Source of the DNA: Ramlibacter sp. PS4R-6
GTDB taxonomy: Bacteria > Pseudomonadota > Gammaproteobacteria > Burkholderiales > Burkholderiaceae_C
Direction of reading: 5' to 3'
Assembly: GCF_037572775.1 (NCBI RefSeq)
Contig: NZ_JBBHKA010000001.1
Coordinates: forward strand, 558,001 to 622,000
Length of the DNA stretch: 64,000 bases
The notes beneath the pieces are model-generated. The model was not told the origin of the DNA. It saw only the letters and a program-made list of their open reading frames with translations, and did not search any database. The position numbers were made by a program, and so were the translations under genes. This document shows, piece after piece, positions 7,176 through 9,947 of this stretch (position 1 is its first letter; each line of letters begins with the position of its first letter).

Positions 7176-9371
7176 CTAGGCCGCCAGCTGCTCATCCCGC
7201 TTCGTGCGGCCCTTGTAGACGTTGTTCAGCGACAGCGTCAGGCAGTAGGCCGCCCCGCCGGAGCGGTTGAACGAGCCCAGCGGCACCACGTGCACGTGGT
7301 AGCCGCGCGCCCGCAGCTCGGCGCGCAGCGCGTCCGAGCAGTGGCAGGCCACCAGCACGCGGTCGATGCACACGCCGTTCACGCCCAGCGCGGCGGCGTC
7401 CTCCTCGGGCGCCTCGATCAGGTTGTCGCGGCCGACGATGGCGCGGATCTCGTCCCGGCCCTCCTCGGTGAAGGCGCCGGGGTAATACAGGACCTCGCCG
7501 CCGGACAGCAGGCAGAAGGCCGTGTCCAGGTGGTAGTAGCGCGGGTCGACCAGCTCCAGCGACACCGTCGGGATGCCGAAGACCTGCTCGATGGTGTGGT
7601 GCGCCGAGCGGCACGAACGCTGGCCGTATCCCATCCACATGATGCGGCGGTTGGCGTCGAAGACGGCGTCGCCGGCGCCCTCGAAGTACACGCCTTCGGG
7701 CGTGCGGTACACGGCGTCGACCAGGCCGCGCTGCTGCAGCTGCTCGAACATCTGGCGGCCGTGCGCCTCCTCGCCCGAGCGTTCGGCCTTCAGGTAGCGC
7801 GCCAGGATCGCCTTGCCATCCAGCACGACCGCGCAGTTGGCGGTGAAGACCAGGTCGGGGCAGCCGGCCACGGGCGGCTTCACCGTGACATCCACGCCGA
7901 GCTGCTCGTAGCTGGCCTTGAGCAGGTCCCAGCCTTGCGCGGCGTCACGCGCGAGGCGCTTGGCGTCCAGCTGCCACTCGCCCGGCTTCATCCACGGATT
8001 GATCGAGTAGGCCACCTCGAAGTGATCGGGTGGGCTCATGAGGAACTGGGGCGCATCGCCCCCGGTTGCACTGGCCTCGATCGAGCGCTCCACGCCCGCG
8101 CGACGGCCGGGCGCTACCGAAAATATAGCAAGCTCCTCGCATTTTTCAAGCACCACGTCGCGGAAGCGGTCCACGGCGTCGTCGATCAGGGCCTTGCTGA
8201 TGGTCAGGGGCGGCGCAAAACGGATCACCGTCTCGTGCGTTTCCTTCGACAGCACGCCCCGGTCGGCCAGGCGCTGCACCAGTTCGCGCGCTTCCGCGCG
8301 TGCCGGGTCGATGTCCACGCCGACCCACAGGCCGCGGCCGCGCACCTCGCGGATCAGGCCGCCGGCCTCGCGCATGACGGAGTTCAGGCGCTCGTGCAGG
8401 TGCGCGCCCAGCGCAGCGCTTCGGCCCACCAGGTTCTCGTCCTCCATCACTTTCAGCGCCTCGAGCGCCACGGCCGAAGCCAGCGCGTTGCCGCCGAAGG
8501 TGGAGCCGTGGCTGCCCGGCTCGAACACCGCGTCCATCACCTTCGCATCGGCGAGGAAGGCACTCACCGGCAACACGCCGCCGCCCAGCGCCTTGCCCAG
8601 CACCAGCGCGTCGGGGCGGATGCCCTCGTGCTCGAAGGCGAACCAGCGGCCGGTACGGCCCAGGCCCGATTGCACCTCGTCGAGGATCAACAGGATGTTG
8701 TGGCGATCGCACCAGGCGCGCAGTTCGGCGAAGAAGCCTTCGGGCGGCACGATGACGCCGGCCTCGCCCTGGATCGGCTCGACCAGCACGGCGCAGGTGT
8801 TGGCCGTGGTGGCGGCGCGCACGCTGGCCATGTCGCCGAAATCGAAGTGCGCGAAGCCGCTCGCCAGCGGGCCGAAGCCTTCGCGGTAATCGGGCTCGCT
8901 CGAGAAGCTGACGATGGTGCTGGTGCGGCCGTGGAAGTTGCCGCGCGCCACCAGGATCTCCTGCTCACCGTCGACCAGGCCCTTGACGCGCTGGCCCCAA
9001 CGGCGCGCGCACTTGATGGCGGTCTCCACCGCTTCGGCGCCGGTGTTCATCGGCAGCGCGCGCGAAAAGCCCGTCACCGCGCACAGCTTTTCGAGGAAGG
9101 GGCCGAGCGTGGTGCCGTGGTAGGCGCGGGAGGTGACAGCAACCTTCTTGACTTGCTCTTCGAGGGCCGCAACGACGCGCGGGTGCAGGTGGCCGTGCGA
9201 CACGGCCGAATACGCACTCATCATGTCGATGTACTCGCGCCCTTCGACGTCCCAGACCAGGCAGTCCTTCGCGCGGTCGATCACGACCGGCACCGGCGCG
9301 TAGTTGCGGGCGCCGTAGCGGTTCTCTTTCCGAATGAAATCGGCGGTGGTGAGGCGGTTCTTCGCATCCAT
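7176..9371 (-). CDS. Fusion: ornithine aminotransferase + arginine/citrulline hydrolase (ArgZ/CtlX/DDAH-like)
   Basis: One uninterrupted 731-residue frame encodes two enzymes. Residues about 1-410 are a class III PLP aminotransferase of the ornithine-oxo-acid type (RocD): GNFHGRT near 144, LILDEVQSGLGRTG 228-241 and the PLP lysine K260 in LVLGKALGGG. Residues about 441-731 are a guanidino-modifying hydrolase: FLMSPPDHFEVAYSINPWM 443-461, DLVFTANC 506-513, catalytic-type histidine H614 in YYHLDTAF and nucleophile C710 in GGAAYCLTL. Family knowledge allows arginine dihydrolase, citrulline ureidase (CtlX) or dimethylargininase activity; the first two would yield ornithine for the first domain. 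The ATG at 9371 has AGGGAG upstream. An lrp gene precedes it. The domain assignment is firm, the exact hydrolase substrate is not. Confidence 0.85.
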   Translation of the reverse strand: MDAKNRLTTADFIRKENRYGARNYAPVPVVIDRAKDCLVWDVEGREYIDMMSAYSAVSHGHLHPRVVAALEEQVKKVAVTSRAYHGTTLGPFLEKLCAVTGFSRALPMNTGAEAVETAIKCARRWGQRVKGLVDGEQEILVARGNFHGRTSTIVSFSSEPDYREGFGPLASGFAHFDFGDMASVRAATTANTCAVLVEPIQGEAGVIVPPEGFFAELRAWCDRHNILLILDEVQSGLGRTGRWFAFEHEGIRPDALVLGKALGGGVLPVSAFLADAKVMDAVFEPGSHGSTFGGNALASAVALEALKVMEDENLVGRSAALGAHLHERLNSVMREAGGLIREVRGRGLWVGVDIDPARAEARELVQRLADRGVLSKETHETVIRFAPPLTISKALIDDAVDRFRDVVLEKCEELAIFSVAPGRRAGVERSIEASATGGDAPQFLMSPPDHFEVAYSINPWMKPGEWQLDAKRLARDAAQGWDLLKASYEQLGVDVTVKPPVAGCPDLVFTANCAVVLDGKAILARYLKAERSGEEAHGRQMFEQLQQRGLVDAVYRTPEGVYFEGAGDAVFDANRRIMWMGYGQRSCRSAHHTIEQVFGIPTVSLELVDPRYYHLDTAFCLLSGGEVLYYPGAFTEEGRDEIRAIVGRDNLIEAPEEDAAALGVNGVCIDRVLVACHCSDALRAELRARGYHVHVVPLGSFNRSGGAAYCLTLSLNNVYKGRTKRDEQLAA
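8122..8149 (-). promoter_or_regulatory. Promoter-like sequence inside the fusion linker
   Basis: On the minus strand TTGAAA (8149-8144) and TATATT (8127-8122) are separated by 16 bases, a near-consensus sigma-70 pattern in very GC-rich DNA. It lies in the codons linking the aminotransferase and hydrolase domains. Transcription would begin near 8115, upstream of an in-frame GTG at 8093 and an ATG at 8039, either of which could start a free hydrolase domain. It may be a relic of the promoter of a once separate gene, or still active. No transcript evidence is available. Confidence 0.4.
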
Positions 9372-9447
9372 GGGGAAACTCCCTGTGATGCGGAAAGTGT
9401 AGGCGCGATGGCCCTGCCGAGGGGGTGAATCGGGTCGCACGGCGCTT

Positions 9448-9473: not shown

Positions 9474-9947
9474 TCACTTCCGATTCGGAAGCGGGAAGCC
9501 CGCGAACTCCTTGATCGTCTGCATCTCGATGTTGGTGACGATCTTCTCCACCCCCAGCGCCGCCTCGTCCAGCCAGCCATTGATGAGCCGGTGGTAGTGC
9601 GCCAGGTGCGGGCAGGCGATGCGCACCAGGTAGTCGTAGCGGCCGCTCACCACCCAGCAGCCGACGACCTCGGGCGTTTGCGCCATGCGCTTCTCGAACC
9701 GCTGCAGCGAGGCCTGCCGCTGGTCCTTGAGCGCGATCTCGGCGAAGGCGCACACCTGCTCGCCCAGCGCCGAGCGGCTCACCATCGCGCGGTAGCCCTC
9801 GATCACGCCTTCGGATTCGAGCTTGCGCACGCGGTTGAGCGTGGCGCGTGCCGACAGGTGGATGGCTTCCGAGAGCGCCTGCACCGTCGTCCGGCCGTCC
9901 TGCTGCAGCAGCTCCAGCAGCTTCAGGTCGGCGCGGTCCAGTTCCAT
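9474..9947 (-). CDS. Lrp/AsnC family transcriptional regulator
   Basis: A 157-residue protein with an N-terminal helix-turn-helix (about residues 5-60, DLKLLELLQQDGRTTVQALS then SARATLNRVRKLESEGVI) and a C-terminal RAM/AsnC ligand domain (about 70-145, VVGCWVVSGRYDYLVRIAC). Members sense amino acids and often control the neighbouring catabolic gene. It begins 4 bp after the lptE stop codon, so it is probably co-transcribed with leuS-lptE, and it precedes the fusion by 102 bp. Control of the fusion by arginine, citrulline or ornithine is an inference from adjacency. Confidence 0.9.
   Translation of the reverse strand: MELDRADLKLLELLQQDGRTTVQALSEAIHLSARATLNRVRKLESEGVIEGYRAMVSRSALGEQVCAFAEIALKDQRQASLQRFEKRMAQTPEVVGCWVVSGRYDYLVRIACPHLAHYHRLINGWLDEAALGVEKIVTNIEMQTIKEFAGFPLPNRK

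Follow-up and report, generated by a model that had tools for sequence, protein, structure and literature searches.

A gene joining an ornithine aminotransferase to an arginine-dihydrolase-like domain in Ramlibacter and other Burkholderiales, probably a bifunctional enzyme of arginine catabolism

The window, by which we mean the whole 64,000-nucleotide stretch of Ramlibacter sp. PS4R-6 DNA analysed here, contains a gene that joins an ornithine aminotransferase (OAT) domain, in one reading frame, to an arginine-dihydrolase-like domain (HY). We consider it probable that this gene encodes a bifunctional arginine-catabolic enzyme, with HY acting from arginine to ornithine and OAT from ornithine to glutamate semialdehyde, and that the fusion arose once. 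The features concerned are the following:

7176–9371, minus strand: fusion gene in the order OAT, linker, HY; 731 codons plus stop (open reading frame)
9379–9384, minus strand: AGGGAG, Shine-Dalgarno-like, 7 nt ahead of the ATG (sequence inspection)
9474–9947, minus strand: Lrp/AsnC-family regulator, directly upstream (Pfam PF01037, PF13412, PF13404)
8145–9341, minus strand: OAT domain, residues 11–409 (TIGR01885, 480.6 bits, cut-off 378.4)
8592–8594, minus strand: K260, presumed PLP lysine (alignment with PDB ornithine aminotransferases)
8049–8141, minus strand: linker, residues 411–441, variable among relatives (alignment of relatives; predicted model)
8113–8129, minus strand: palindrome GCTATATTTTCGGTAGC in the linker, GCTAT-N7-(A/G)TAGC (pattern search; some related genomes carry similar ones at dispersed sites)
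7188–8048, minus strand: HY domain, residues about 442–728 (NF052232, NF052231; ArgZ/AgrE in PDB)
7836–7838, minus strand: N512 (FTAN), opposite AgrE N71 (alignment)
7530–7532, minus strand: H614, opposite AgrE H168 (alignment)
7242–7244, minus strand: C710, opposite AgrE C264 (alignment)

The frame runs from an ATG at 9371 to a stop at 7176–7178, with a product of 79.6 kDa. This bears out the single continuous 731-codon frame with both domains that a preliminary description of this DNA had read, without giving a strand. The plus strand over the same gene holds an open frame of 757 amino acids, presumably what a GC-rich gene leaves on its other strand. The fusion is real: codon-position GC is coding-like in the OAT domain and in the HY domain, and a search for proteins with both domains in this order, as the preliminary description had proposed, returned in-frame fusions at 19 further distinct loci, so that we do not regard the gene as a frameshift artefact. 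A frameshift near 8110–8150, a possibility raised in the preliminary description, likewise finds no support, since the 19 other loci keep one frame. The OAT frame was found to span HY in L008, L017, L018, L095 and L097; in one relative, L027, OAT and HY lie in different frames, which is what an artefact of sequencing or assembly would lead one to expect, and against the frame conserved at the 19 other fused loci we give that explanation a negligible chance. In L027 itself (7300–7312) the end of OAT forms a GTGA overlap with the hydrolase in another frame, either a natural split or an assembly indel.

The aminotransferase domain, matched over residues 11–407, lies above the curated cut-off of TIGR01885 (E = 3e-144) and below that of the stricter PRK04073 model (506 bits, cut-off 656), and it is matched by PDB entries named ornithine aminotransferase with E values of 1e-101 to 1e-120. 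Residues Y55, Y85 and R180 of human OAT align with Y24, Y54 and R149 of the fusion, which we take to hold the corresponding functional roles, as we take K260 to be the PLP lysine. K260, H614 and C710 were found by alignment and sequence position exactly where they had first been placed. In a fold search with the model of the whole fusion, the 50 matches listed are ornithine-type aminotransferases and their relatives, and the search is uninformative on the hydrolase because all listed rows are of the aminotransferase type.

The hydrolase domain resembles arginine dihydrolases far beyond chance, though under the curated cut-offs (E about 1e-67 against the ArgZ models). It reaches 229.4 bits against the arginine dihydrolase model NF052232 (cut-off 450) and 231 bits against the bifunctional ArgZ/AgrE model NF052231 (cut-off 1025), the latter match covering profile positions 6–282 of 696, with the C-terminal ornithine cyclodeaminase part absent. 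Because it stays below these cut-offs and lacks the cyclodeaminase part, we do not file the fusion as ArgZ, and the score of 229 against 450 counts against the arginine dihydrolase reading. The six best PDB sequence matches of HY are AgrE (Alr4995) and ArgZ (Sll1336), with E values of 4e-53 to 2e-55. AgrE residues N22, N71, E118, H168, D170 and C264, which we take to be catalytic, align with N458, N512, E564, H614, D616 and C710, and these six are kept in all 47 aligned HY rows (46 of them different; the window and two PDB dihydrolases are included). Presumably Cys710 is the nucleophile and His614 the general acid/base, with N458, N512, E564 and D616 in the same site.

A different reading would make HY a dimethylargininase or an arginine deiminase that yields citrulline, its link to ornithine being indirect. 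Such a reading could draw on the Pfam class of the domain (PF19420, DDAH_eukar, 46.9 bits), on the dimethylargininase model of the Mycobacterium tuberculosis type (NF045659, 209.6 bits, cut-off 300), almost as close as NF052232, and on the annotation of Rv2323c in that sense in PMC4569260. The nearest solved proteins nevertheless are ArgZ and AgrE, whereas dimethylargininases in PDB match HY with E = 0.007 or worse; the arginine deiminase family PF02274 has no match in the fusion up to E = 0.001. The motifs of HY are FTAN and HLD, with FTAN in place of the FTRD that, together with HLD, is quoted for guanidino enzymes such as deiminases in PMC9007349. Together with the gene content of fused genomes given below, this leads us to consider a citrulline-yielding hydrolase improbable.

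The preliminary description had left the ornithine-forming hydrolase as either ArgZ-like, acting on arginine, or CtlX-like, acting on citrulline. The first option stands, with the nearest PDB proteins and the six residues behind it, and the second falls. CtlX, in the same paper a putative citrullinase with the motifs FPNN and HTN whose gene is often beside ornithine cyclodeaminase (PMC9007349), is a distantly related hydrolase, but neither motifs nor score fit: HY has FTAN and HLD, and the weak match to the CtlX model NF046062 (24.5 bits), the one point in favour of a citrullinase that turns citrulline into ornithine, is far under the cut-off of 334. We reject a CtlX identity on score and motif and see very little chance for a citrullinase of this kind. 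By sequence comparison, the closest resemblance of HY is to ArgZ/AgrE and not to CtlX.

Relatives differ in how long the linker is and in its sequence. An AlphaFold2 model built from 29 aligned sequences has a mean pLDDT of 86.7 and a pTM of 0.60, with pLDDT below 50 at residues 418–438, and therefore describes two mostly confident parts with a loose linker and uncertain relative orientation. Channelling between the two sites, raised as a possibility in the preliminary description, gains no support from a linker so variable, from its low mid-linker pLDDT or from a pTM of only 0.60. The palindrome within the linker, in the form GCTATNNANTCGRTAGC, has 4–19 copies in each of six fused genomes and at most one in each of the other ten genomes searched (the reversed control gave 0); the window's own genome has one copy, elsewhere than in the linker, and fused G069 and G318 have none.

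A TTGAAA-16-TATATT string also lies in the linker region (8149–8122). In a comparison of 63 sequences, exactly that place holds the best promoter-like pair, with 9 or 10 of 12 positions matched in 13 of the 21 HY loci that form the Comamonadaceae set; of control stretches drawn from that OAT gene, 0–4% score as high. We claim no promoter here, because the pair is found in OAT-only L023 and L030 as well, is missing in 8 of the 21 HY loci, and has a −10 half that overlaps the dispersed palindrome. The linkers of L015, L016, L090 and L093 contain CAGGAG-N6-GCCATG or a close form, that is, a Shine-Dalgarno-like string and an in-frame ATG; unfused HY genes start behind comparable signals (AAAGGAG with ATGACC in L203, AAAGGAG with ATGACG in L056). 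These linker strings look like an old HY start that has been retained, and could work as a separate start for the hydrolase.

A scan of genome contigs gave 80 loci, with OAT and HY in one frame in 14 (L008–L020, L062). A search of 399 genomes from the same family as the window gave a full-length match in 13, the window's own genome included, and in G109 a piece of HY where a contig begins. With HY as query, 20 of 399 genomes of the order matched, those with at least 70% identity being the window's own genome and G070. Among 1,965 matching plasmid records, two reach a query coverage of 80% or more, in both cases split over two pieces.

The usual gene order is leuS-lptE-lrp-OAT(-HY)-holA-proA. 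At the 19 other fused loci lrp is always directly before OAT, and lptE is found at 18, leuS at 16, holA at 16 and proA at 13; some missing neighbours reflect contig or locus ends, L012 is without holA in the 3.6 kb after HY, and L013 and L019 have no proA in the stretch of over 4 kb that follows holA. The 32 OAT-only syntenic tree rows share this site (holA in 32, lrp in 17), with holA mostly tens to a few hundred bases past the OAT stop. OAT-only tails of L023, L030 and L067 resemble the start of the linker, and L023 (1956–2174) retains, past its OAT stop, some 50 nt of a degenerate beginning of HY, a trace of HY loss. Such remnants were sought in 13 OAT-only gaps, and L023 alone has a clear one.

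The 20 fused rows (the window included, duplicates between collections such as L014/L091 dropped) group with the split L027 in a single clade of the HY tree (support 99/96), which makes a single fusion origin the simplest reading. On the OAT tree of 84 rows, which leaves out L065 with its broken frame, the HY/no-HY label needs at least 10 changes, 6 of them forced by starred branches, a count that cannot prove direction; repeated loss of HY is likely. Within the Ramlibacter/Caenimonas OAT clade (support 94, not starred), 31 of 36 rows are without HY and are interspersed with fused ones. The likeliest history is one fusion origin followed by repeated HY loss in Ramlibacter: neighbouring OAT and HY genes would most likely have become one frame once, and the hydrolase part would later have been lost in many arginase-bearing Ramlibacter lineages.

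With respect to arginase, 32 of the 399 family genomes were chosen: every full-fusion genome (13), 5 that are OAT-only, 2 that lack such an OAT, and 12 from about 25 with another OAT arrangement (G109 lies outside the sample). PF00491 was found in 24 of the 32, and 40 of its 43 matches were fetched and clustered (left out were two of G388 and one of fused G069); 10 of the 40 were typed by NCBIfam, and the other 30 were assigned from the clusters. Each of the 19 genomes without HY contributes one member to the rocF cluster, as does the window's genome. No member was found in the 12 other fused family genomes: PF00491 is absent in 8 and represented only by agmatinase types in 3, one of which, G069, has an additional weak, untyped match (23.7 bits), and G318 has a 71-residue piece nearest to these agmatinases. 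Arginine deiminase (ADI, PF02274) and AstB (PF04996) have no match in any of the 13 fused genomes, the window's own included, and PF19420 matches nothing there other than the fusion itself, in 11 of 13 (it is missed in 2). That rocF, ADI and AstB are not found in 12 of these 13 genomes, and that their sole PF19420 matches are the fusion, speaks further against a hydrolase that yields citrulline. Urease does not differ along with the arginase pattern, being present in 30 of the 32 genomes.

A second set comprised the 50 genomes behind the scan loci, several of the same species as in the first. Among its 14 fused genomes rocF is over the cut-off in two (L008, L010) and cut by a contig end in L009, which we count as having arginase; L016 has a divergent arginase-like gene (L198; its 163 bits fall short of the rocF cut-off), carried by a 4.5-kb MAG contig, and in the other 10 rocF is absent or reaches only 41–71 bits. 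The split L027 has rocF, as do 30 of the 31 OAT-only genomes over the cut-off, the remaining one (L035) being cut by a contig end. At the unfused HY loci there is no rocF in L051 and about 80 bits only in L056, L075 and L069.

Across 66 rows of the OAT tree, 19 have HY without arginase (15 fused, 4 adjacent), 42 have arginase without HY, 5 have both (the window, L008, L009, L010 and the split L027) and none has neither; 18 of the 84 rows were dropped from this count (L016 for its divergent arginase, L035 for its contig end, the rest as outside the arginase search). The association is strong when kinship is ignored (Fisher, P = 2.5e-12); with kinship taken into account there are 5 independent pairs on starred branches, 2 or 3 of them informative and all of these complementary, and the sign test is not significant. 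The arginase pattern and the neighbouring genes together point to ornithine as the product. Since the window's genome, L008, L010, L027 and in part L009 have an arginase, the replacement argument fails there; most fused relatives outside Ramlibacter/Caenimonas would carry the fusion in place of arginase plus RocD. We lean, with some reserve, towards a wider view in which the fusion places a urea-free arginase pathway on one polypeptide and has taken the place of arginase in a group of Burkholderiales, L015, L016, L090 and L093 maybe producing both the full fusion and, from the ribosome-binding site and ATG in the linker, a stand-alone hydrolase.

In the window's genome the fusion may, given the arginase there, be redundant or a second route. 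Taken further, HY would be redundant and in the process of being lost, like that of most Ramlibacter, with OAT alone mattering. That most Ramlibacter/Caenimonas rows lack HY and that L023 keeps a decayed HY start would fit this, as would pN/pS between the window and L008, which is higher for HY (0.45) than for OAT (0.36). However, the six aligned active-site residues are intact and dN/dS for the same pair is well under 1 (about 0.37 for HY and 0.29 for OAT), and both domains look to be under purifying selection; we hold a redundant HY in the course of loss to be rather unlikely. In this genome the arginase gene and a PutA-type gene are a few kb apart (G000:C1:433000-445000, L201).

The domain matches support the earlier suggestion of one polypeptide with two plausible consecutive steps. 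For the preferred bifunctional reading we infer that HY would hydrolyse L-arginine as ArgZ/AgrE does, giving L-ornithine, CO2 and two NH3, and that OAT would use ornithine and 2-oxoglutarate to form glutamate-5-semialdehyde by PLP-dependent transamination. The PutA-type enzyme of the same genome, with its proline dehydrogenase and aldehyde dehydrogenase parts, could carry glutamate semialdehyde on to glutamate, and the adjacent Lrp/AsnC-type regulator probably controls the fusion gene. The net route, arginine to glutamate semialdehyde, would be that of RocF arginase plus RocD; arginase releases urea and has a fold unrelated to HY. Cyanobacterial ArgZ/AgrE (arginine dihydrolase-ornithine cyclodeaminase; PDB 6juy, 6lrf) has the same kind of hydrolase with the six aligned residues, likewise fused to an ornithine-using enzyme. 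Here, in contrast, that enzyme is a PLP aminotransferase and is N-terminal, and it would yield glutamate semialdehyde in place of proline. The component domains are known; joined as OAT and HY in this order, they make a new variation on the ArgZ/AgrE theme. No description of the fusion is among the matches listed in an open-literature search, a weak negative. If the proposal holds, this would be, beside ArgZ/AgrE, a second natural fusion that moves arginine into central metabolism without arginase or urea. The environmental fused proteins offer test material for the uncertain chemistry of hydrolases often named dimethylargininase, and the with/without pattern at one syntenic site offers a natural experiment on the gain and loss of a fused domain.

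The two activities also occur as separate neighbouring genes, which the preliminary description had placed in Burkholderiales and which we find in other families and classes. HY genes that do not belong to the fused clade adjoin OAT in L051, L056, L075, L069–L072, L182 and L184/L203; in L203, which covers more sequence around L184, the OAT stop and HY start overlap as ATGA after AAAGGAG, and in L202 HY is followed by an ornithine cyclodeaminase (PF02423, 354 bits). Most other order-level HY loci have no OAT within 1.5 kb on either side. Family f23 (L183, L185–L189) consists of stand-alone hydrolase relatives with about 39–40% identity. L204, the one wider context analysed for this family, around L186, has a stand-alone relative whose neighbours are unrelated to ornithine; this counts against an ornithine-linked role, and the role of the f23 proteins may therefore differ.

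The Roc cluster of M. tuberculosis, as described in PMC4569260, is similar in that hydrolase and OAT genes are adjacent and accompanied by a regulator, and differs in that they are separate genes there and one frame here. According to this paper, Rv2323c, rocD and rocE are induced by arginine and lie beside the regulator Rv2324, proline made from labelled arginine shows a 13C excess of 6.4% in an Rv2323c knockout vs 49.8%, rocD has a frameshift, and the authors leave the reaction of Rv2323c unassigned (PMC4569260). This large drop in the flow of arginine carbon into proline counts in favour of the bifunctional reading. Rv2323c is a probable relative of HY, a kinship suggested by the M. tuberculosis-type NCBIfam model, which HY matches below its cut-off. 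On the Mycobacterium ulcerans plasmid NZ_CP083743.1, genes annotated as rocD and ddaH are adjacent, an unfused form of the same pair.
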